Assembly (NCBI GenBank): GCA_947176505.1 | Contig: CAMWQW010000011.1 | Location: 62,001-126,000 of the forward strand | DNA length: 64,000 bases | Reading direction: 5' to 3' | Origin: an uncultured Lachnospiraceae bacterium | GTDB lineage: Bacteria; Bacillota; Clostridia; Lachnospirales; Lachnospiraceae | Shown here: piece after piece, positions 25,254 through 37,490 of the stretch | Layout of the letters: every line of letters starts with the position of its first letter | Position numbering within the stretch: position 1 is the first letter of the stretch | Made by a program: the position numbers and the translations under genes | Notes under the pieces: model-generated | What the model was told of the DNA's origin: nothing | Seen by the model: only the letters and a program-made list of their open reading frames with translations | Database searches by the model: none

Positions 25254-28011
25254 ATTGAATCGTCGCTCCCGCAGCAAGGGGAGCGACCTAATATTTCCAC
25301 GCATACCAGTTACAGTGCCGTCATTTCAATCCACGCTCCCGCGAGGGGAGCGACTTAAACCCGCTATGGTCCACTATCGTTTCCCCAAATTTCAATCCAC
25401 GCTCCCGCGAGGGGAGCGACTAAAATCAGCAACTGCACTGGATACATCTTCGATATTTCAATCCACGCTCCCGCGAGGGGAGCGACCTTTGACGAGCGTC
25501 AGTTTTGTGCATGATATGCGCATTTCAATCCACGCTCCCGCGAGGGGAGCGACCACAGCAGGCGCAGCGATCACAAAAAGCGCAGTCATTTCAATCCACG
25601 CTCCCGCGAGGGGAGCGACTATATGCAGAGGGTGTAAGAATTGCTTTAGGGCAATTTCAATCCACGCTCCCGCGAGGGGAGCGACTGCCGGAAAGGAGAT
25701 GTATTATGTTGTCAACCAAAATTTCAATCCACGCTCCCGCGAGGGGAGCGACGTAAATTGGCTTTCTGATGATCAGGATAGGGGCGATTTCAATCCACGC
25801 TCCCGCGAGGGGAGCGACCAATAGACCAGACAGCATAACGCGGAGAGCCGTAAATTTCAATCCACGCTCCCGCGAGGGGAGCGACTGCCATGGCATCAGT
25901 CCTCTTTTTCCGGACGTCCGATTTCAATCCACGCTCCCGCGAGGGGAGCGACGCCTTTATCTGTTTTTCACGACTATCCAACTCAATTTCAATCCACGCT
26001 CCCGCGAGGGGAGCGACTGAGGTATCGTGCCGCCTCTTTCTTTGGACGCATATTTCAATCCACGCTCCCGCGAGGGGAGCGACTGGCATCATGCACAAAA
26101 TAAAAGAAAAGAGGAAAGATTTCAATCCACGCTCCCGCGAGGGGAGCGACGAAGTGTACGTATTGTGATACAAGATATGGCTGTATTTCAATCCACGCTC
26201 CCGCGAGGGGAGCGACAATATCACGTTGCCGGCTTTGCATGCTTCGTTACCATTTCAATCCACGCTCCCGCGAGGGGAGCGACACAAGCAGGATATTTGT
26301 ATAATATTCAAGAGTTGATTTCAATCCACGCTCCCGCGAGGGGAGCGACATTGTCAAAACCTGAGCGACAAGAGGATATTCAAATTTCAATCCACGCTCC
26401 CGCGAGGGGAGCGACTGACAAAGATAGCTGGTATGGTGTTACAAAGTTGATTTCAATCCACGCTCCCGCGAGGGGAGCGACGTCAATACAATCAACAATA
26501 AGTGGTTGTGGGAATGATTTCAATCCACGCTCCCGCGAGGGGAGCGACACAGGTCGTCTTTGCATAACCAAAAGTCTCTTCGATTTCAATCCACGCTCCC
26601 GCGAGGGGAGCGACGACTTTCAAGAAGTCTTCTTCATCCACTACATGATTTCAATCCACGCTCCCGCGAGGGGAGCGACGTTTCTTTCCATACTTTCTTT
26701 CTTGTTCCTCGTGATTTCAATCCACGCTCCCGCGAGGGGAGCGACTGCAAATAAAGCAGAGAATATCGTGTGCATGGTGATTTCAATCCACGCTCCCGCG
26801 AGGGGAGCGACTCAAATTCGCATAATTGCCAATATTGATGAACTGATTTCAATCCACGCTCCCGCGAGGGGAGCGACCCTGACAGGCACCAAAAACGTGA
26901 ACGAAGCAAAGATTTCAATCCACGCTCCCGCGAGGGGAGCGACAAGGTCAAAAGAGCAATCGGTTAAAATAAAAAGATTTCAATCCACGCTCCCGCGAGG
27001 GGAGCGACTTAAGAAGCCGTATGGTTAAGAGGAGGTAACGGATTTCAATCCACGCTCCCGCGAGGGGAGCGACTCAAATTGTACAATCCGTGAATATCAT
27101 CTATGTGATTTCAATCCACGCTCCCGCGAGGGGAGCGACGAAGTGATGGAACAACATTGTACGTGTTGCAAGATTTCAATCCACGCTCCCGCGAGGGGAG
27201 CGACTCTTACTACCCAGCTTCCGTTCCAGCATGTTCAGCATTTCAATCCACGCTCCCGCGAGGGGAGCGACAGGATATGCGATATTCAGGACTCTAGGGA
27301 TTTTATTTCAATCCACGCTCCCGCGAGGGGAGCGACAGACCTGAGTGAATGTATCTCGTTACGTCTCACACAATTTCAATCCACGCTCCCGCGAGGGGAG
27401 CGACGGATGCGTGTGGGATGATAAGGAGTGAAGAGTGATGATTTCAATCCACGCTCCCGCGAGGGGAGCGACGATTATCCTAAACAGCAGACACAACCGC
27501 AGGTTGATTTCAATCCACGCTCCCGCGAGGGGAGCGACGCAGATACCTCATGGGCGGTAGATCTTGCCATATGATTTCAATCCACGCTCCCGCGAGGGGA
27601 GCGACTGTGTTATAATGTTTTCACCACAAAAACCAAAACAATTTCAATCCACGCTCCCGCGAGGGGAGCGACACGTTCGGAAAAGAGAGGGAAAAGGTAA
27701 AGATATATTTCAATCCACGCTCCCGCGAGGGGAGCGACGACGGTCAAGGTCGCCCATCAGCAGGTAAACTATTATATTTCAATCCACGCTCCCGCGAGGG
27801 GAGCGACGGGACATACAAAAGTATGTCTCTTTTTTGTACATATATTTCAATCCACGCTCCCGCGAGGGGAGCGACATTGCTGCCACGCTCATATGATGCA
27901 TTCGGATGACAATTTCAATCCACGCTCCCGCGAGGGGAGCGACGATGTTATGACAGTCTATAACTATTGTCGGAACGAAATTTCAATCCACGCTCCCGCG
28001 AGGGGAGCGAC
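25254..28011 (-). CRISPR. Type I-C CRISPR array, 42 repeats and 41 spacers
   Basis: Repeats of 32 bp recur every 65-69 bp, first intact copy 25323-25354 and last 27980-28011. In the transcribed (minus) sense they begin GTCGCTCCCC, fold through CGCTCCC/GGGAGCG and end GTGGATTGAAAT, the type I-C signature. Spacers are 33-37 bp. The repeats read as identical except the distal one (25254-25287), which keeps the stem but has extra loop bases and a lost handle. The leader is therefore at the 28012 end beside cas2, and the newest spacers lie near 27980. Long open frames through the array are artefacts of the repeat. Confidence 0.98.
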
Positions 28012-28176: not shown

Positions 28177-28467
28177 TCATATCATTAGAATTCCCTCGGC
28201 TTCATAAGCCGTTTTAGTGCCAAAATGTTCTACTTTTGTCTGATAATTATTTCCCAGATAATAAAAGCGCAGACTATCTTCTTTTTCGTTGATTAAAGAA
28301 ACCAACCGGTCCTTCAACTGTAATAACTGTGATGCATCCAAAATACACTCAAATACCGAATTTTGAACCCGCTGTCCGTAGTTGACGCACTCTTTTGCAA
28401 CTTTACGAAGGCGGCTCTTTCCTGCTGCATTCTGAGTAGAAACATCATATGTAATTAACACCAACAT
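28177..28467 (-). CDS. cas2: CRISPR-associated endonuclease Cas2
   Basis: 96 residues, the usual type I-C size. The ferredoxin-like fold begins MLVLITYDVST with the conserved metal Asp at residue 8, followed by RLRKVAKECVNYGQRVQNSVFE, a standard Cas2 signature, and a C-terminal strand ending near EGILMI. Cas2 forms the core of the Cas1-Cas2 integrase that inserts new spacers at the leader end. The ATG has AGGTGG upstream and lies 8 bases after cas1. It is the last cas gene, and its stop touches the leader inverted repeat. Confidence 0.97.
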   Translation of the reverse strand: MLVLITYDVSTQNAAGKSRLRKVAKECVNYGQRVQNSVFECILDASQLLQLKDRLVSLINEKEDSLRFYYLGNNYQTKVEHFGTKTAYEAEGILMI

Positions 28468-28475
28468 TCAACCAC

Positions 28476-29507
28476 CTACTTCCATAAAAATGGCGGGTAC
28501 TCATCCACATCACCCCGAATCGTTCTGGCTAATAAAAGAGCCTGTATATAAGGAACCAATCCCCATTCAATCTTTTCCTTTAAATACGGGTGCGTTAATG
28601 TTTCTCTTTTATGATTCTGCCATGCACCAAAAAATACTTTTCTACCATCATCATTTAAGAGAACTGCTCCATCCTTTTGCTTTTCAAAATGTGTCGCTTG
28701 AATTACTTTTGTATTTACCAATGTCAAAACAAACCGGTCTGCCAAAATCGGTCTTAACTCCTCCATCAAATCAAGTGCAAGAGAAGTTCGCCCCGGTCTG
28801 TCTCCATGCATAAATCCCACATATGGGTCCAAGCCCACGCTTGATAATGCATTAGCACAGTCACCGGCAAGGATTGTATATGCAAAGGATAATATTGCAT
28901 TAATATTATCAAGCGGTGGTCGGCGATTCCTTGTCGTGAACATAAAGTCTTCCTTCTGATTTAATATCATCTCATTAAATACGGAAAAATATTGTTCCGC
29001 TGCTTTCCCCTCAATTCCTCGCAATACATCTAACTCGGAAACAGCATCTATTTTAGGAAGTGTATCATATAAGCTATTAGATACAACTTTAAGCTTTTCC
29101 GCATCTACACGGTAAGCGTGATCCCGCAAAGTGCGTTCTATACTCCATCGACTATTGAAAACCTTTCCGATAATCATATTTTTTGCATAGCCAGTACTCC
29201 TCATATCGTCATCGGATATCCGATACTGCTCTTTCCTAAGTAACACGTTTCCATATTCTTTCCCAACCGCTCTGGCTAAAAATGCTCCTCTCGGAGAGAA
29301 AAAGCTCATTCCAATCTTTCGCTCCGCGCAAGCACCCATCAAAGCAGGACTCGCCCCTTTGTATGTGAAGCATATAATATTCTCCAGTGTATGAAGCGGA
29401 AATCTACCCAGCATTTTCTCGCCATCCTGTATCACGATATTTTCACCATCAAGCGTTAAATAACAGTTTTCTGTCATAACATACAAAGTATTTAATAATT
29501 TACGCAC
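28476..29507 (-). CDS. cas1: CRISPR-associated endonuclease/integrase Cas1 (type I-C)
   Basis: 343 residues. The N-terminal beta domain (TLYVMTENCYLTLDGENIVI) is followed by an alpha-helical catalytic domain. Metal-binding residues are in GIEGKAAEQYF (Glu, near residue 165), GFMHGDRPGRTSLALDLME (His near 231) and the following Asp/Glu. Typical I-C features include RRPPLDNINAILSFAYTIL. It catalyses spacer integration with Cas2 and, in this subtype, Cas4. GGAG is present upstream of the ATG. Intact and in the standard order. Confidence 0.97.
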   Translation of the reverse strand: MRKLLNTLYVMTENCYLTLDGENIVIQDGEKMLGRFPLHTLENIICFTYKGASPALMGACAERKIGMSFFSPRGAFLARAVGKEYGNVLLRKEQYRISDDDMRSTGYAKNMIIGKVFNSRWSIERTLRDHAYRVDAEKLKVVSNSLYDTLPKIDAVSELDVLRGIEGKAAEQYFSVFNEMILNQKEDFMFTTRNRRPPLDNINAILSFAYTILAGDCANALSSVGLDPYVGFMHGDRPGRTSLALDLMEELRPILADRFVLTLVNTKVIQATHFEKQKDGAVLLNDDGRKVFFGAWQNHKRETLTHPYLKEKIEWGLVPYIQALLLARTIRGDVDEYPPFLWK

Positions 29508-29545: not shown

Positions 29546-30217
29546 CTACTGAACTTCATCATTTTCCTTAATGCCTTGTTCAATATATTCTCTGACTTTC
29601 ATTACCTTTTGCAATTTGGGAACGCACAAATTTTCCAATGAACAGGCTTTACATTTCTTAACTGGTTTTACATTCGGCGTATATCCTCTTTGAAACAAAT
29701 CGTGCATTTCCTTCGCTGCCTTTTTTACTTCTTCTCTCAAAGCGCCTGTAAATTCCACATGGCTACGCCGTCTGTTTTCACCATAATACAAATATCCATC
29801 CGATATGTCCGTCTGGAACATTTCTTCAAGGCAAATTGCCTGTGCACATAGCTGCAGCTCATCCGCATTGTATTCTTTAGGCGTTCCATGTTTATATTCA
29901 ATTGGTACCGGACTCCATTTTCCTTCATAACCAAATAAGTCGATACCCTTTTCATTTTGATGGAATTCCACAACATCACATTGCCCGCTGAGCCCAAGTT
30001 CTCGAGAAGAAATCCTCATTCCTCTAACAATCAACAAATCCCCTCTTTTTTCAAATGAATCTGCATCGTGCGCTTTCTTGTGCATCAGCTCACCCGCGGT
30101 TGTTCTGTAATTCTCCGCCCACTGCTGCTCGATATGTATCATTGCCCACTGTTTTCTGCAAAACGCAAAGTGTTGAATCCCGGAAAGCATCAGATAATCT
30201 TCTTCGACATACATCAT
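29546..30217 (-). CDS. cas4: CRISPR-associated exonuclease Cas4 (type I-C)
   Basis: 223 residues. A RecB-like nuclease core with SGIQHFAFCRKQWAMIH, GQCDVVEFH, the metal/Lys motif VPIEYKHGTPKE and the helical ELQLCAQAICLEEMF. The Fe-S cluster is supplied by the Cys in FCRKQW and by CKACSLENLC near the C-terminus. In I-C systems Cas4 trims prespacers and selects those with the correct PAM (TTC) and orientation. Start 30217 overlaps the cas7 stop by one base (TGATG), so translation is coupled. Intact. Confidence 0.95.
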   Translation of the reverse strand: MMYVEEDYLMLSGIQHFAFCRKQWAMIHIEQQWAENYRTTAGELMHKKAHDADSFEKRGDLLIVRGMRISSRELGLSGQCDVVEFHQNEKGIDLFGYEGKWSPVPIEYKHGTPKEYNADELQLCAQAICLEEMFQTDISDGYLYYGENRRRSHVEFTGALREEVKKAAKEMHDLFQRGYTPNVKPVKKCKACSLENLCVPKLQKVMKVREYIEQGIKENDEVQ

Positions 30218-31068
30218 CAAATACCTTCTATTTCTTCAAGCGCCAAATTCGGTAAGGAATCAACCGTTATATCGTAATCTGCAAACTCTTTCGGATTATC
30301 CGTTTTCGCCGTGACTTTTATAAGTCTATGAACCTTTGCGGAAGAATATTGTCCCATAGGACAATTATGCTTCCACCAGTATACTTTACAGACTTCCATG
30401 CTTCCATCCGGTCTCGCAGAGGAGCTGTCGTTGACAAATAATGTGCGCAAAGCCTCTTTAATTTTTGCCGCATCTTCATCGTCAAATCCTGTCTTTTCTG
30501 CAAGCTGGTGGTTGATACTGCCCTTTACGACATATAGTGCTGAATCTATCTTATGCTTCATTCCCATTGTATCGGACGATTTCTTTCCTCCCTTTTCCGG
30601 CTCACTGTTAACGCTTTTAGTAATCTGCATGCTGTCAATAGCAACCGGCAGTACACTGAACGCTGAATGAATAGAAACCGGTCCCCGCACGCCTACGGAC
30701 ACACTGTCATCTTTGAACGCAAATACCTGCCCAAAGCTGCGTACATCAATCCATGTTTCACACGCTGCTTTGGCATAAGCCTCCTTATCTTTCTCCTTCA
30801 ATGCCTTCTGCATGTCTGCATTACTCTTCGCTCTCTCTGCGAGGCTTTTGCAGCCATCATCAGCTCTCTCGTCGCTCTGCACGAAAATATTCTCACCCAT
30901 ATCCTGTAACCTATTTCTAATCTTACGTTTAATGCATACATCTGAAATCTCGCCAAATCCGTCGTATGTCTCTCTTGGTCTGTTTCCATTGAGCGGGTCC
31001 CCGTTAGGATTCGCATTTCTAACCATTACCAGAACTTCAAAATCGATTTTGTTTGTAAATTCACTCAT
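30217..31068 (-). CDS. cas7: Cascade backbone subunit Cas7 (Csd2), type I-C
   Basis: 283 residues of the Csd2 branch of Cas7. The opening KIDFEVLVMVRNANPNGDPL and NRPRETYDGFGEISDVCIKR are diagnostic, and SVGVRGPVSIHSAF and MGMKHKIDSALYVVKGSIN lie in the middle. Several copies coat the crRNA spacer, kinking every sixth base, and form the filament of the effector. AGGTGAGG upstream of the ATG. It lies between cas8c (53-base gap) and cas4 (1-base overlap). Confidence 0.97.
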   Translation of the reverse strand: MSEFTNKIDFEVLVMVRNANPNGDPLNGNRPRETYDGFGEISDVCIKRKIRNRLQDMGENIFVQSDERADDGCKSLAERAKSNADMQKALKEKDKEAYAKAACETWIDVRSFGQVFAFKDDSVSVGVRGPVSIHSAFSVLPVAIDSMQITKSVNSEPEKGGKKSSDTMGMKHKIDSALYVVKGSINHQLAEKTGFDDEDAAKIKEALRTLFVNDSSSARPDGSMEVCKVYWWKHNCPMGQYSSAKVHRLIKVTAKTDNPKEFADYDITVDSLPNLALEEIEGI

Positions 31069-31121: not shown

Positions 31122-31514
31122 CTACTGTTCCTTTTTCTGAAACGCCTTCTTCATGTATTCCATCTGTTGGTAATATGCCGGTAAATACATCTCTGTCAGC
31201 GCCTTATTGTTGAATTTGTTTTCATCCAAATGTGACATAATTTCACCAGCCCATTCCTCAAACTTCATCAGTTCATAATCTTTTAATTTTCTTTCGTAGG
31301 CAACCAGATTTTCCTTGATTGTCTTTAACGTTCTTGCCGGTCTGCTGCTATAGGCATTCCAGTAACGCTTTGCATTCGTTGTACGGCGTTCCTTTACTTT
31401 GCCGTTCTCATCATATTCAAACATCGCCCGCTGTTCCATGTAATCATATACCGCCAGCAGTCGTCCGAATAAAACATTGCGGTCCTCTACATTATCGTTC
31501 ATAAAATTGTCCAT
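31122..31514 (-). CDS. cas11c: Cas11c small subunit from an internal start within cas8c
   Basis: Within cas8c an exceptionally strong ribosome site, AAGGAGGT, is followed after 6 bases by ATG at 31514, in the cas8c frame. It gives 130 residues beginning [16 protein letters not shown] and rich in helices ([36 protein letters not shown]). Type I-C systems are known to make Cas11 by internal translation of cas8c. It lines the belly of Cascade. The sequence shows the signal directly; actual production is inferred from the family. Confidence 0.85.
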   Translation of the reverse strand: MDNFMNDNVEDRNVLFGRLLAVYDYMEQRAMFEYDENGKVKERRTTNAKRYWNAYSSRPARTLKTIKENLVAYERKLKDYELMKFEEWAGEIMSHLDENKFNNKALTEMYLPAYYQQMEYMKKAFQKKEQ

Positions 31515-33044
31515 TGTTTTACCTCCTTGCTCATATTGAAACCGTATCATTGCGCAGACCACACACAGCACATCGTTATACCAGACAAAATCGTTCATTG
31601 TCTGCGGCATGGATGCCCGCACCGCGGCAGCCTTAATCAAATCGAGTGGAATCTCACATCCCTCACGAGTAATACAAGGGAGCAGTCTCTTTATGGTGGC
31701 TCTAATCAGTTTTCCGTCCGCCTCCAGCCATTCCGACCTCTGTACTCCAAACGCCGCAAGTGCCATATCTCTGGGCGATGGTGTGCACTCGCAGGTGACT
31801 CTTTTTCTGCTCTCTTCCGCTGTTCCCACCTTGACAGTACGACGCCATTTGCAGTGCTGCTGCCAGTTCAACACCGCATCCATATACTGTTTTCCGCCCA
31901 TCTCATCATAATAGACCACAGAAAGCCGTCCTGTCGTTGCCGCATCCAACGCAATAACTGCCACACGGTCATCTACTTTAATTTTTCCGGCATACCCATT
32001 TACTGCGTGATTAAATTGTTCTGCAAAGTACTTGCCCGTATCCCGCTTTGCTGCATTCGACGTTTCATATGTATCAAAGTCGTCAAAGTCAAAGTCAAAA
32101 TCTTCAATACCCTGATATGCATTGATAGAATCCTTCATCATATCCGGCACCTGCATATCCCTATTTACCATAAAGCAGACGATTGCCGACTCGTCACGCG
32201 TATATCCCTGCTTCTGAATCAGCCAGCGCAGTGCATTATGTGCTTTCTGAGAAGTATCATATCCGATGGAAACTGCCTGTTCTTTCGTCGTAAACCTTCC
32301 CCGGTAAGTGAAGCCGGATTCATCATTTCCGGAAATCAGTTTTGCTTTGTCGGCGCTGTTTCTTATTTTAGAGGGATGCTTATCGGAACAGATTTCCGTT
32401 TTTCCGGAAATATAGCATAGTTTCTTTTCCCTTGGCTTGTGTTGATAATAATCACAATATTTTTTATATAATTCCTGATTCTTCCAAACCTCCTGCGGCA
32501 GCCGACTCCCGGAAACCTTAAACCGCACGTTTGCCCCGGTCTGTCCTAGCCCCTGTATTTTACTCTGATCCGTCAGCTTTCCATCACCATTCAACTTCAA
32601 CACCTGACTTACTACCAAATCATGTATCAAAGATTTTTTCATAAGATATTGGTATACTGCCTGCACCATCAGATGGGTATCAGCTGATTCCGCCCATTCC
32701 TGCAGTTGTTCTATATATGCTTTAAAATATTCCTCTTTATCATCTCCGGTATACGTTGTGTAGTCCCCTGCTATGTAGCAAAGCTTGTCGCAAAGCGGAT
32801 GCGGCGTAATACCGTTAGCCTTAGCTGCCGAGTCCTCCGTAACCGGAATGATTGTAACAACATCCCTGCCTTTCTCAAGCTTTTTCGCATTTATAAAATT
32901 ACCGTCCTGATCAATCGTCACCTCTATCTGAGCGTTAAAGGTCGAATGAGAAATCGGCAGTAACACCGGCTGTCCGTTCTTATCAACTCCCGCCAAGTCA
33001 GCATAGACATCATATGTTTCAGCCAAAGTCTTTAACAGTGCCAA
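31122..33044 (-). CDS. cas8c: Cascade large subunit Cas8c (Csd1), type I-C
   Basis: 640 residues with the Csd1 pattern: [11 protein letters not shown] at the start, [19 protein letters not shown] near residue 30, [30 protein letters not shown] in the middle (split here by description), and a helical C-terminal quarter. Cas8c recognises the PAM and recruits Cas3. The proposed start is a TTG at 33042-33044, 8 bases after GGAGG, overlapping the cas5c stop by 26 bases. An upstream in-frame start would overlap more and lacks a ribosome site. The C-terminal 130 codons appear to be translated separately as Cas11c. Confidence 0.93.
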
Positions 33045-33765
33045 ATAAATCACCTCCCTCAAATTCCTGCAGCCCTATGAAATTCTTTTCAGGAATAAAT
33101 TGTTTCTGTTTTGCGTCCCGCAAAATATGCCTAATCTCGCATTCCTCCGGTCTCGGATAATGTATGATTCCGTCTTTCATCTGTGCGTTCCAGAGCCGTA
33201 CCGTCATTTTACCCTTTTCCTCTTCTCTGGCAGCTTCATCAGGATAGGTGATGCCGTGTACCATAACGCCAAATGATAAATCTGTCCCGTCATAGCTCCC
33301 TTTTCCATCTCCGAAAGAACACGGCTCCACATATCCCTGACACTCTCGTGCCCCTAAGAAAATATCTCTCCTCCCTCCCCGCTCGACCATTCTCCTTGCA
33401 ATATCATAATGTTTGTTTTCATTGCGGTCATGCGCCAAATCGCTCCGGTTTTCATTCCACTCAAAATGCGCTCTTATCTGATACTCCACATTACGTAGAT
33501 ACGTGTAATAGGACAAATCATTCCCCCCGCCATACTTGATTGGTCTGATTCCCTTCGACTCTGTCTGAATCATGTTCATGATACGGCACTCGTCAATAAT
33601 CCATGTGATGGTCGGCTTCCAGTATATAGATTCCGTTATCCCCTTAAGCGCCTGATAAGTTGGTATCTGATAGCTGCATTTCTCACCGCCTGTTTTGGAC
33701 AGTGGATCCGTAAATAATGCATATCTCCCAAACACACTGTATTCAATGATATTAGGCTTGTCCAT
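33019..33765 (-). CDS. cas5c: Cas5c (Cas5d) crRNA-processing endonuclease and Cascade subunit
   Basis: 248 residues. The opening [36 protein letters not shown] region (quoted in part: [11 protein letters not shown]) and [16 protein letters not shown] are typical of Cas5d. A Tyr/Lys/His-containing core follows with [17 protein letters not shown] sequence at [14 protein letters not shown]. In type I-C this subunit replaces Cas6: it cuts pre-crRNA at the base of the repeat stem, leaving an 11-nt 5' handle, and stays bound to it. Good ribosome site. Its 3' end overlaps cas8c by 26 bases. Confidence 0.95.
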
Positions 33766-33797: not shown

Positions 33798-36257
33798 TTA
33801 AAAAATGAGCGTCTCCCATTCCGGTGTAATCCCATACTCCATATTGTAAGCACCGGGCGCTGCCACCATATAGAGTTGCGGTAGTTTATCGCTTATAGGT
33901 TGTATCAGACCGTCATATTTTTTTAGCTGTTCTCCCCTGATGTTTACCGTATATCTCTGTGCCTGCCGTATCTGTACTTTTATTTCCGCCATGTCAGATG
34001 CCATCTGAATCTTCTCTATAATCTCTGCACCTTTCTTATACGGCACAATGACTCCAAACGAACAATCATCTATAACCCGGTACGCCTGCCCTGCTGTCTT
34101 ATACGCTTGATTCATTTGATTCCTCTTTTCCTCCGGATAAAATCCACACGATAAGAGTTCCATAATATTTGTATCCAACTTTTCAAGTGGGAAATTCATT
34201 TTATCGGATGCATAATAGTACATATTTTCATAATACTTGTCCATCCATTTGGGCATCAGTATGCTGTCCCTCTTTTCTCCTTGATGATCACGGTTGCTCT
34301 GGTCATATTGGAGAAGCACATTCTCCGTTACCCGTATATTCTGCTGGAGTTCTTCCATATTTCCTGTATTTTCATCTTCAAGCGCTACCAAATGGACATT
34401 TCCACAGTCAAGCTCCCCGTTTCTGTTACATCGTCCGGCAGTCTGCGCCAGACTGTCCAAGCCTGTCATAGAGCGATACACACACTCAAATGAAATATCT
34501 ACCCCAGCTTCAATTAAATTGGTACTGACCACGACAATTGTTTCCCGTTTCTTTTCAAGAACCTCCTTGATTGCTTTAATCTTATCGCTTCTATGCTCGG
34601 CACATAGATTAGTCGTAAGATATTGCACATGGATATTGCAATTAGTCAATATATCATACAATCTTCTGACTGCAGATTTTGTATTGAGCACTACAAGGAT
34701 TGATTTATATTCCGCCGATTGTTCTGCAATTTCATTTCCAAGACTCTCAAAAGTATATTTTTTATCCCTCTTAGGTGTATAAATTTTAACCCTGTCAAAC
34801 TTACGAAACCAACTGTCTGCATTCTCTATCATATACTTTGGCTCACTGTAACAGATCGGACACTTTGCTTCCGCCAGCGTTGGCTGTGTTGCGGTACACA
34901 GAATAATGTCCGTATTGCATACTGCATTCAGAAAATTAATCATGTAATTAAAAGTATGCACACACTTCATTGGCATTGACTGCACTTCGTCAATGATCAC
35001 TACTGAATTAACAAGTCTGTGCATCCGCCGCACTGACTCGCTTTTATCCGAAAACAGTGTATTCATGAATTGAACAAATGTTGTACAGATAAAAGGCTCT
35101 TCCCAATTGATATCAAATTTGGATACCGAATCAATGCGATAGTCTTCACTCCCGGTTTCACTCCCGGTTTCCTCATTTCTAATAACCGATGAGTGATGTT
35201 CCAATATCCAGCTATCGTTCCCGATTGCATCACGAAATACCTGCGCATTTTGTTCCGTAATGCTGATATAAGGCGAAACATAGATAATGCGCTCTGTCTC
35301 CGGATGTATCCTGCAGTATTCCAACGCATACGCCAGACTGCTGAGCGTCTTTCCGCCACCGGTAGGAATAGGCAGACAATATATTCCTGCAGGATGCTTC
35401 GCAAATTGCCTGCATTCATCTTGCAATGAATTTCTCGCTTCGAAAATTTCTGTTTCCTTATCAGTTAACTGAGACGTATTTATGGCACACTGCTTTTTTT
35501 GCATATATGCTTCAAAATTTTCCTGCGCTTGCCGAAAGATTTCTTGCACATTTAATTCCGACTGCTTTGACAATGTATCCACACTATCCATAAAATCAGA
35601 AGTTGCTTCCCAATCCGCATCAATTAGCATAGATAATATCAGACGCTGTAAGGCAGAACAAAGAAAAAGTCTGCATTCTGACAGCTTTCCCCTCACATCC
35701 CGCTGATTGTTAGACACCAGCATAGGCTGCAATCTTGTAAAAAGGTCTTTTATCTTATTCCAAATCAAATGAAATTCATTGGTTGAATTGACAAAAATTT
35801 TATCCAATTTATATCTATCCAGATAATCCCTTTCGGCGTTTCTGCATGCTTCATCATAATCATCAACCTCATTTATCTTTATAGAAAATATGTCTTTAAG
35901 CTCTATATCAACACAGTCAAACAAACCATGGTGCGCCGCCACAGCGTAAGAAATCATCTCCACCATAATTTTTGTAATCCCATCATTTTCATGATACCGG
36001 TCATAAATATACTTCGCGCCTGTCGATGCATGTGCAATCGTGCCTCTTAATTTATGCCTTTCATTTTCGTCAGCATATAAATAGTCAGCAAATATTTGCT
36101 TATTCTTGCCCAAATCGTGGATGATGCCGCATAAGGACATAATTTGTGCCATTCCGCACCGCACACCCTTTTTCTGACACAGAAAGGTTGTTTTCTCGGT
36201 GTGTTCTGCTACTGATTCTTCTCTGTTAAAGCCATCGTCTGAAATGTGTGCAACCAC
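33798..36257 (-). CDS. cas3: CRISPR-associated nuclease-helicase Cas3 (type I-C)
   Basis: 819 residues. N-terminal HD nuclease with His19, His47-Asp48 in GIIHDLGKN, and further His in TIAHAS and VAAHHGLFD. Then an SF2 helicase: Walker A PTGGGKTLSS (about residue 300), DEVQS (about 418), motif III CTATQPT, and motif VI QTAGRCNRNG. It degrades DNA once Cascade is bound. The start is a GTG at 36257 with GGGGAG 5 bases upstream. It is the first gene of the cas operon; the promoter lies about 100 bases upstream, leaving a 5' leader of roughly 95 nt that contains the candidate guide target. Confidence 0.96.
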   Translation of the reverse strand: MVAHISDDGFNREESVAEHTEKTTFLCQKKGVRCGMAQIMSLCGIIHDLGKNKQIFADYLYADENERHKLRGTIAHASTGAKYIYDRYHENDGITKIMVEMISYAVAAHHGLFDCVDIELKDIFSIKINEVDDYDEACRNAERDYLDRYKLDKIFVNSTNEFHLIWNKIKDLFTRLQPMLVSNNQRDVRGKLSECRLFLCSALQRLILSMLIDADWEATSDFMDSVDTLSKQSELNVQEIFRQAQENFEAYMQKKQCAINTSQLTDKETEIFEARNSLQDECRQFAKHPAGIYCLPIPTGGGKTLSSLAYALEYCRIHPETERIIYVSPYISITEQNAQVFRDAIGNDSWILEHHSSVIRNEETGSETGSEDYRIDSVSKFDINWEEPFICTTFVQFMNTLFSDKSESVRRMHRLVNSVVIIDEVQSMPMKCVHTFNYMINFLNAVCNTDIILCTATQPTLAEAKCPICYSEPKYMIENADSWFRKFDRVKIYTPKRDKKYTFESLGNEIAEQSAEYKSILVVLNTKSAVRRLYDILTNCNIHVQYLTTNLCAEHRSDKIKAIKEVLEKKRETIVVVSTNLIEAGVDISFECVYRSMTGLDSLAQTAGRCNRNGELDCGNVHLVALEDENTGNMEELQQNIRVTENVLLQYDQSNRDHQGEKRDSILMPKWMDKYYENMYYYASDKMNFPLEKLDTNIMELLSCGFYPEEKRNQMNQAYKTAGQAYRVIDDCSFGVIVPYKKGAEIIEKIQMASDMAEIKVQIRQAQRYTVNIRGEQLKKYDGLIQPISDKLPQLYMVAAPGAYNMEYGITPEWETLIF

Positions 36258-36319: not shown

Positions 36320-36345
36320 TTCAATAAAAATGTAGTTATTAATTG
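36320..36345 (+). promoter_or_regulatory. Candidate guide-RNA target site in the cas transcript leader
   Basis: TTC at 36320-36322, the known type I-C PAM, is followed on the plus strand by a sequence that matches the guide of the crRNA-like element at 36472 at positions 1, 3-5, 7-11 and 13-18, with mismatches only at 2, 6 and 12 in the first 18. It lies about 8-30 bases downstream of the predicted cas transcription start, where bound Cascade would block transcription. Confidence 0.65.
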
Positions 36346-36358
36346 TACTATATATATA

Positions 36359-36387
36359 AGAATACTGGCACAATAAAAACTTGTCAA
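36359..36387 (-). promoter_or_regulatory. Predicted promoter of the cas operon
   Basis: On the minus strand TTGACA (36382-36387) and TATTCT (36359-36364) are separated by exactly 17 bp. The predicted start is near 36352, about 95 bases before the cas3 GTG. No other promoter of this quality is seen between cas3 and the hemerythrin gene on this strand. Confidence 0.75.
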
Positions 36388-36405: not shown

Positions 36406-36434
36406 TTGATAAATATTTCTTCATCGCATAAAAT
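36406..36434 (+). promoter_or_regulatory. Predicted promoter of the crRNA-like RNA
   Basis: TTGATA (36406-36411), 17 bp, TAAAAT (36429-36434) on the plus strand, divergent from the cas promoter. Its predicted start, about 7 bases downstream, falls on the G at 36441, the first base of the repeat-like element. Confidence 0.7.
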
Positions 36435-36440
36435 ATTTAT

Positions 36441-36521
36441 GTCACTTAATAAATAAAGTGTGGATTGAAAAATTAATAATGTTGTTATTTTTGTGGCACG
36501 GCGGCAGTTTTCTCTGCCGCC
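36441..36521 (+). ncRNA. Candidate crRNA-like regulatory RNA (CreR-type) upstream of cas3
   Basis: 36441-36471 aligns with the array repeat. It begins GTCACT (repeat GTCGCT), forms a CACTT/AAGTG stem, and ends GTGTGGATTGAAAA (repeat GCGTGGATTGAAAT). The G-C pair in the repeat stem is replaced by an A-T pair on both sides, a compensatory change. Cleavage by Cas5c at the stem base would leave an 11-nt handle of normal length. A 21-28 base guide follows from 36472, then a strong hairpin GGCGGCAG/CTGCCGCC (36500-36521) in place of a second repeat. The guide matches a TTC-flanked site in the cas leader. CreR-type RNAs that autoregulate cas operons are known in some other CRISPR types. This assignment is inference from sequence. 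Confidence 0.68.
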
Positions 36522-36608: not shown

Positions 36609-37490
36609 ATGTCTAAAGAAGCTGAATGGAACAATCGGTTTAACATCGGAGTTGATTCCATCGACAATGCACACCGGAAACTTTTTTCAATTGTACGCAA
36701 ATTAATCCATCTAAGTGAAGATGAAAATAACGGTCAGTGGGCATGTGCCGAAGGTATCAAATACTTTAAGAGTTATGCCATAGAACATTTTACCGATGAA
36801 GAAAAATATATGCAGTCAATTGGCTATAAAGGATATGAAATACACAAACGGCTGCATGACGACATGCGTTATAAAACACTTCCTGCACTCGAAAACGACC
36901 TTACCAAATCAAACTATTCACAAGAATCCATCCACCACTTTCTTGGTATTTGTCTTGGATGGCTTACCGCACACATTATGGTTGAAGACCGTGCCATTAC
37001 GGGGAAAAGTACAAATAAATGGAAAAAGGATAATGTCGGGGAAGACCTTAATGCCTTAGAAGATGCATTAACCGTCACCATACAAGAAATTTTCAGATTA
37101 CAAACAGATATCGTCAGCGAGCATTACAGCGGAGATGACTTCGGCGATAGTATGATCATCCGACTGACATATCATTCAAATGACGGTGTCAAGACACATA
37201 TTTTCATGGTTCTCGAAGAAAGTCTTGTGTTGAAAACCGTAAGCTCTATGCTGAATATGCCCTTAACAAAAATGGATAAGCTAGTCATGAATGCCGGCAA
37301 GGAGCTTTCACTGCGAATCGCGGAGCAAGTTGGCATGCATTGTCAACCGGCATTACAGTACCAGCTTGATAGCAGCCATTTTATGACTTCGGAACAGTTT
37401 AGGAAGGCATTTTATATGGAGCCTTTTGATTACAGCATATTATTTAACACCGGGTGCGGATACTTTGCATTTTGCATTAAAATGGAATGA
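36609..37490 (+). CDS. Bacteriohemerythrin-domain protein with a CheX-like C-terminal domain
   Basis: 293 residues. The N-terminal 130 form a hemerythrin four-helix bundle with the iron ligands in NAHRKLF, IEHFTDEEKYM, YEIHKRLHDDM and LTAHIMVEDRAI, the usual H..HxxxE..HxxxH..HxxxxD order. After a linker, about 140 residues resemble the CheX/CheC fold (SMIIRLTYHSNDGVKTHIFM, MDKLVMNAGKELSLRIAEQVG). A fused oxygen- or metal-sensing module with a chemotaxis-phosphatase-like domain is plausible, but the second assignment is by pattern only. Monocistronic, with a hairpin after the stop. Confidence 0.8.
   Translation: MSKEAEWNNRFNIGVDSIDNAHRKLFSIVRKLIHLSEDENNGQWACAEGIKYFKSYAIEHFTDEEKYMQSIGYKGYEIHKRLHDDMRYKTLPALENDLTKSNYSQESIHHFLGICLGWLTAHIMVEDRAITGKSTNKWKKDNVGEDLNALEDALTVTIQEIFRLQTDIVSEHYSGDDFGDSMIIRLTYHSNDGVKTHIFMVLEESLVLKTVSSMLNMPLTKMDKLVMNAGKELSLRIAEQVGMHCQPALQYQLDSSHFMTSEQFRKAFYMEPFDYSILFNTGCGYFAFCIKME

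Follow-up and report, generated by a model that had tools for sequence, protein, structure and literature searches.

The locus described here raises a simple question: what does a single repeat-like unit do by itself beside a cas operon? The unit (36441-36471, plus strand) sits between cas3 and a gene for a hemerythrin-domain protein in a 64,000-nucleotide stretch of DNA from an uncultured Lachnospiraceae bacterium, which was analysed at its full length and is called the window below. On its minus strand, the window carries a type I-C CRISPR-Cas locus with cas3, cas5c, cas8c, cas7, cas4, cas1c and cas2 and an array:

33798-36257, minus strand: cas3, with the gene start at 36257
33019-33765, minus strand: cas5c
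31122-33062, minus strand: cas8c/csd1
30217-31068, minus strand: cas7/csd2
29546-30220, minus strand: cas4
28476-29507, minus strand: cas1c
28177-28467, minus strand: cas2
25323-28011, minus strand: CRISPR array of 41 exact repeats with spacers of 33-37 nt and the sense repeat GTCGCTCCCCTCGCGGGAGCGTGGATTGAAAT

A degenerate array-end repeat, GTCGCTCCCGCAGCAAGGGGAGCGAC, lies past the last full repeat at 25262-25287. At the other side of the locus, the hemerythrin-domain gene (36609-37490) adjoins the predicted RNA gene; a similar neighbour is found beside cas3 in three related loci that have no such RNA (L014, L041 and L042) and in one genome that has it (G009).

The lone unit keeps the order of elements of the array repeat, with a G-C pair of the repeat stem turned into A-T and a C-G pair into T-A. 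Handles of type I-C crRNAs are 11 nt long, and the handle of the unit is identical to the end of the array repeat at 10 of 11 positions. The features of the predicted RNA gene are the following:

36406-36411, plus strand: predicted -35 element of the guide RNA, TTGATA (consensus match only)
36429-36434, plus strand: predicted -10 element of the guide RNA, TAAAAT, 6 nt upstream of the pseudo-repeat (consensus match only)
36441-36460, plus strand: 5' part of the pseudo-repeat, GT followed by the hairpin CACTT/AAGTG
36461-36471, plus strand: the 11-nt handle, TGGATTGAAAA
36472-36499, plus strand: 28 nt leading to the 3' hairpin, the first 18 of which (36472-36489) are the guide ATTAATAATGTTGTTATT that was matched to the target
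36500-36521, plus strand: 3' hairpin, GGCGGCAG/CTGCCGCC, without a T run, called from its fold energy

The predicted promoter (TTGATA-N17-TAAAAT, 36406-36434, plus strand) would place the start of the RNA at about the first base of the pseudo-repeat. The GC-rich 3' hairpin folds with -17.7 kcal/mol, a value that 0 of 200 shuffles equalled, and it follows the guide in place of a second repeat: no handle-like site with at most 2 changes was found on that strand at a distance of 55-90 nt. A rule-based terminator scan returned none after the guide of the window. The pseudo-repeat hairpin of the window is weak by itself (-3.0 kcal/mol, with 25 of 200 shuffles equally good), and it is missing from the minimum-energy structure predicted for the 90-nt RNA. 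An Rfam search gave 6 matches, every one under its gathering score. A second copy of GTGGATTGAAAA in the genome was set aside: it lies at a gene start and not within a pseudo-repeat.

The site matched by the guide and the predicted cas promoter next to it were located as follows:

36320-36322, plus strand: target PAM, TTC, read from the sequence; TTC also flanks most of the best matches in relatives
36323-36340, plus strand: target, AATAAAAATGTAGTTATT, 18 bases, 15 of them matching the guide
36359-36364, minus strand: predicted -10 element of the cas promoter, TATTCT (consensus match only)
36382-36387, minus strand: predicted -35 element of the cas promoter, TTGACA (consensus match only)

The earlier note had claimed that the first 18 bases of the guide agree with those behind TTC at 36320 in 15 positions, with mismatches at positions 2, 6 and 12, and we reproduced this exactly from the sequence. 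It had also cautioned that an AT-rich region may yield such a match by chance. When TTC was required, 15/18 was reached in 3 of 20,000 sequences obtained by dinucleotide-shuffling the 183-bp intergenic region. With the PAM rule dropped, 31 of 3,000 dinucleotide-shuffled intergenic sequences matched as well, so the bare match, taken without the PAM and without relatives, is weak evidence. The target ranks first among the 2,853 TTC sites of the window. In the 4.17-Mb genome, the pattern TTCATTAANAATGTNGTTAT was found at one place with 1 mismatch, which is the window target, and at 11 places with 3; since a reversed control pattern was found at 15 places with at most 3 mismatches in the same genome, only the best genomic match stands out. 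Taken by itself, the window provides good, not overwhelming, evidence for a guide-target pair.

The search for relatives covered 164 stretches in which type I-C cas genes lie: the window, 20 cas3 loci with a Cas3 identity of 65-75%, and stretches with Cas5c hits from the genus (6), the family (80 of 86 places besides the window's own) and the phylum (60 of 114), with three duplicates removed (L017, L046 and L047, equal to L039, L044 and L040). A near copy of L036 (L045) and a local repeat (L083) were left out of the footprint, PAM-free, rule-free and co-variation analyses, and L070, which has a CTC flank and resembles a local inverted repeat, was left out of the guide-cluster count. Three further loci (L075, L090 and L104) match in other scans and fail the isolated-handle filter.

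Handle-bearing units were found upstream of cas3 in 8 of the 20 close loci (L029, L031, L033, L034, L036, L037, L038 and L045), and their guides are mutually unlike. Across all 164 stretches there were 146 isolated handle-like sites, 23 of which have, within 700 bases, a TTC-flanked match at 13 or more of the 15 positions that are not every sixth; for 19 of the 146, the match reaches at least 14. Among 29,200 dinucleotide shuffles, 3 reached 13/15 and 0 reached 14, and when guides were swapped against the regions of other loci 2 of 462 combinations reached 13, both between related guides. Chance handle matches inside genes, which have no target, make up many of the 146 sites, as expected. The 27 credible guides fell into 19 clusters at 12/18 identity, and the phylum-wide set of 60 stretches contributed five of the 27, each from another family.

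Closer to the window, a search with the intergenic DNA matched 6 of 41 genomes; among the non-self matches, the pseudo-repeat was present only in G009 (L002), and L003-L007 showed no handle. G009 belongs to the same genus and carries the unit with an altered guide, on a contig that stops before the promoter. In G085, the promoter has TTC-ATTAGTGATGTAGTTAAT and the contig stops before the expected place of the RNA. Among six congeners with Cas8c, the unit was found only in the window and G009, with G085 stopping short of the RNA place, and G091 has the same gene neighbours with the RNA unit absent. The occurrence of the unit is patchy. A pattern search of 299 family genomes matched two genomes, the second of which (G341) proved to be a CRISPR array. 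A handle-free search for pairs in 95 upstream regions gave 905 pairs, most of those listed being CRISPR array repeats; at least 14 pairs, in 14 loci, had a handle of 8/10 or better.

When the PAM was left free, 28 lone repeat-like sites scored at least 13, of which 27 were credible, and the best matches followed TTC in 22 cases, TTT in 4, TCC in 1 and CTC in 1, in regions where TTC makes up 2.3% of the triplets. A rule-free search, with neither PAM nor sixth-base rule, gave 27 sites with at least 14/17 (TTC 20, TTT 4, and TCC, CTC and ATC 1 each), and positions 6 and 12 accounted for 41 of the 62 mismatches. When 379 random 17-mers took the place of the guides on the same regions, 5 reached 14/17, 0 of them behind TTC. 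TTT serves as a PAM in a type I-C system studied in the excerpted text of PMC10865793. At the four TTT-flanked targets (L058, L063, L065 and L153), mismatches again lie mostly at positions 6, 12 and 18.

Position by position, the 22 TTC pairs matched as follows: 22, 20, 22, 22, 21 and 3 at positions 1-6; 22, 22, 22, 20, 21 and 4 at positions 7-12; 20, 20, 22, 20, 15 and 6 at positions 13-18. It had been proposed that base flipping in Cascade excuses the mismatches at 6 and 12 and that the match fades after position 18. The profile is in line with both, positions 6 and 12 being matched in just 3/22 and 4/22 of the pairs and matching dropping past position 17, to between 2 and 10 of 22 at positions 19-30. 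Positions 6, 12 and 18 match near the expectation between unrelated loci (0.25-0.28). The high match at other positions owes partly to the selection of pairs; a choice made on identity alone returns the same site for all 22 pairs. Selection for mismatch at 6, 12 and 18 was considered and is unsupported, the match being merely slightly below the between-locus expectation. According to the accessible part of PMC5904413, every sixth base is flipped out in type I-E and affinity is maximal with a PAM-proximal match of at most 18 bp. Because free sixth bases and a match of at most 18 bp fit Cascade, the best reading of the guide is one in which it pairs with DNA within Cascade, and the pattern at 6, 12 and 18 together with the fading after 17 would be the footprint expected of that complex.

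Guide and target might still drift independently in relatives, which the earlier note had named as a reason to give the pair up. No such drift was seen: in 8 comparisons between related loci, 2-6 positions each had changed on both sides and were still matched. These positions are 5, 13 and 17 between the window and L029; 16 and 17 between the window and L038; 4, 5, 7, 8 and 10 between the window and L036; 5, 13 and 16 between L029 and L038; 4, 7, 8, 10 and 13 between L029 and L036; 4, 5, 7, 8, 10 and 16 between L036 and L038; 10, 11 and 13 between L033 and L034; and 2, 4 and 14 between L084 and L086. One-sided changes in the 8 comparisons were confined to positions 6, 12, 17 and 18, save position 2 in the window target and position 13 in the L086 target. 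The relatives, and not the window alone, provide the decisive evidence for the pair. As a separate observation, L031 and L037 share one guide, and the target is still matched in L037 with its flank changed from TTC (L031) to TCC (L037), a natural PAM change.

Taken together, we consider it likely, with considerable confidence, that the lone unit and its 18-base guide form a crRNA-like RNA that steers the cell's own Cascade to the predicted cas3 promoter and holds down the cas operon. The shuffles, the 19 guide clusters and the co-variation all speak for the reading that had been offered from the window sequence, Cascade-mediated autorepression of cas by a short imperfect guide. From its predicted promoter, the RNA would begin with the first pseudo-repeat base. 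Cas5c would recognise the hairpin and leave a handle of 11 nt; the 3' end of the RNA would be formed by the GC-rich hairpin behind the guide, in place of the hairpin of a next repeat. The three six-base segments of the guide (positions 1-17), whose match to the target is seen in the sequence, would then pair with it, leaving 6, 12 and 18, which are unconstrained in relatives, and ending where the match stops. Bound Cascade may block RNA polymerase as transcription initiates or immediately afterwards, in an R-loop too short to license Cas3. When Cascade is occupied by ordinary crRNAs or anti-CRISPRs, repression would ease and more Cas protein would be made, by analogy with CreR, a group of crRNA-like RNAs through which Cascade is directed to cas promoters. 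In the excerpted text of PMC10865793, a type I-C Cascade that lacks Cas3 represses a promoter when directed to a TTC site overlapping the -10, and short type I-B guides are described in part of PMC10551041 as repressing rather than cutting. Against this reading count the mismatch at position 2 and the predicted in-transcript target of the window, both discussed below, as well as the weak pseudo-repeat hairpin, promoter predictions no more frequent than in shuffles, the absence of a rule-based terminator and the patchy occurrence.

It is improbable, with a modest chance of being right, that the device is real in relatives and that the window holds a weak or decaying copy of it, its seed mismatched and its target displaced to beyond the transcription start. 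Position 2, in the seed, is indeed mismatched in the window, and the mismatch arose on the target side, because the target and not the guide departs from the sequence of the relatives. The start of the cas transcript was set by convention at ~36352, 7 nt past the -10 element of TTGACA-N17-TATTCT (36387-36359, minus strand). Counted from there, PAM and protospacer lie at about +12 to +33, near the 8-30 bases inside the transcript claimed earlier. In the scan that covered the relatives as well, the target lies at +11 to +32 in the window, versus -8 to +13 in L036 and -4 to +17 in L038 from their predicted starts. Repression by Cascade is weaker when the target lies inside the transcript, according to the accessible part of PMC5904413. 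Against decay, the window is still matched at positions 1, 3-5, 7-11 and 13-17, including 5, 13, 16 and 17, where it differs on both sides from L029 or L038, and L053 too has a mismatch at position 2. The placement itself is to be read with the crudeness of start predictions in relatives: counted from the best-scoring predicted start, the target falls between -20 and +40 in 9 of 23 pairs, and in 14 the prediction lies elsewhere. Predicted promoters are no more common than in shuffles (4 found versus 3.1 expected).

It is very unlikely that the RNA works by conventional antisense pairing with the leader of the cas mRNA. The guide would be complementary to the leftward mRNA in 12 of the 23 pairs, the window among them. 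In the other 11, the guide is on the strand opposite to that of the target, and antisense pairing is impossible there because the guide has the sense of the mRNA of the downstream gene; the TTC or TTT flanks and the free positions 6 and 12 would also be unexpected for an antisense RNA. Chance similarity or a neutral duplicated piece of promoter would draw on the AT-rich region and on the frequency of equal matches in shuffles without the PAM rule, and is scarcely credible against the rarity of such matches with TTC, the 19 guide clusters and the changes on both sides. Equally hard to sustain is a decoy that titrates Cas5c and Cas7 like the phage Racr RNAs and matches the target only secondarily: solitary repeat units behind predicted promoters do exist in the excerpted text of PMC10651486, including an inhibiting type I-C one, and here the unit is the neighbour of cas3 in the cas locus of a bacterium, and its guide has stayed matched to the promoter in relatives.

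The relatives also share features of design. In 12 of 28 stem-bearing units, as in the spacing of the window, hexamers with at least 8/12 matches and a 17-nt spacer lie 6 nt before GTC, a result that is supportive only, as the scan tried 18 spacings. The pseudo-repeat stems vary in sequence yet stay paired, with 2 non-pairs in 92 cells (22 of the 28 stem-bearing units and G009), which holds partly by construction since stems were a selection rule for units. L034 and L110 have strong targets without a simple stem of the shared form. The folds of the relatives' units have a hairpin after the guide, with T runs in several and not in the window. In L031, L033, L068, L102 and L113, the hairpin region from GTC to the handle spans 33-47 nt, longer than that of the repeat, and the handle is retained.

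In the close group, the gene downstream of the target is cas3; in L111, L112, L143 and L152 it is cas5, as judged from the translation of the first gene and confirmed by Pfam for L112. Guides of further loci match TTC sites upstream of other genes: a DUF3990 gene (PF13151) in L084 (1113-1580, minus strand), L086 (5102-5569, plus strand) and L097 (5058-5525, plus strand), and a gene for a Schlafen/AlbA_2 and HTH protein in L102 (4496-5929, plus strand). We take these DUF3990 proteins to be toxin-like, and the guides facing them resemble a CRISPR-guarded addiction or guard module. For the group as a whole, we lean towards the view that a class of guide RNAs with a single repeat and no leader occurs in type I-C systems across Bacillota. 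Built of a promoter, a GTC-hairpin-handle, a short guide and a terminator-like hairpin, these RNAs would make Cascade a programmable repressor, directed at cas3 or cas5 and, in certain lineages, at a DUF3990 protein, which may serve as a guard. The three six-base segments of the R-loop would be kept while every sixth base drifts, so that flipped-base geometry would be written into genome evolution.

If this is true, the common subtype I-C would join those with RNA-guided cas autorepression, in a more compact design with one repeat and no leader. The natural pairs would serve as an evolutionary read-out of the R-loop length that Cascade needs to bind without cutting, because they keep positions 1-5, 7-11 and 13-16 while 6, 12 and 18 drift. 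The RNAs would also strongly predict which type I-C systems answer anti-CRISPRs with more Cas protein.

Among known systems, standalone repeats are reportedly found in mainly type I loci, with spacers that partly match cas promoters (the survey of Shmakov et al. 2023 in NAR), and the window's unit resembles these standalone repeats and mini-arrays of cas loci in its lone repeat and in the partial match of its spacer to a cas promoter. Cas9 is said to repress its own promoter through a long-form tracrRNA (the work of Workman et al. 2021); this likewise is a CRISPR effector acting on its own promoter by a short natural guide, in a Class 2, tracrRNA-derived system unlike the pseudo-repeat of the window. 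With the Racr phage RNA anti-CRISPRs, as presented in part of PMC10651486, the unit shares the single repeat-like element behind a promoter; unlike those phage-borne decoys, or a mobile-element solitary repeat without a target, it belongs to the cas locus of a bacterium, and its guide-target pair is conserved. CreA of the CreTA toxin-antitoxin modules has a degenerate repeat, a short partial guide and Cascade as the repressor in the excerpted text of PMC9458426, all as in the window. In contrast to CreTA and CrePA, the target here lies upstream of cas3 and no toxin was seen in the window, while the guides of some relatives face a non-cas gene.

The closest likeness is to CreR (Liu et al. 2023 in Cell Host Microbe, via the accessible parts of PMC12737573 and PMC13131331): a crRNA-like RNA beside cas genes, a partial PAM-flanked match to a cas promoter and a proposed autorepression by Cascade. 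By the features that define CreRs, the guide of the window lies beside the cas operon and partly matches a PAM-flanked site at the predicted cas promoter, and guide and target co-evolve in the 8 comparisons of related loci. CreRs are autorepressors in types I-B, I-E and V-A in the excerpts of PMC13131331, and part of PMC12737573 describes them as widespread in type I and V-A; unlike the types covered in the former, the locus of the window is I-C. The usual CreR layout is a mini-CRISPR with two repeats, which is not strictly defining, and the window has instead one repeat, a 3' hairpin and a predicted start at the first base of the repeat. A literature search found no description of type I-C cas autorepression by such an RNA; the CreR and standalone-repeat surveys may already list I-C cases, and novelty for type I-C is uncertain. 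Judged from its sequence and neighbourhood, the RNA of the window is most likely a type I-C, single-repeat form of CreR.
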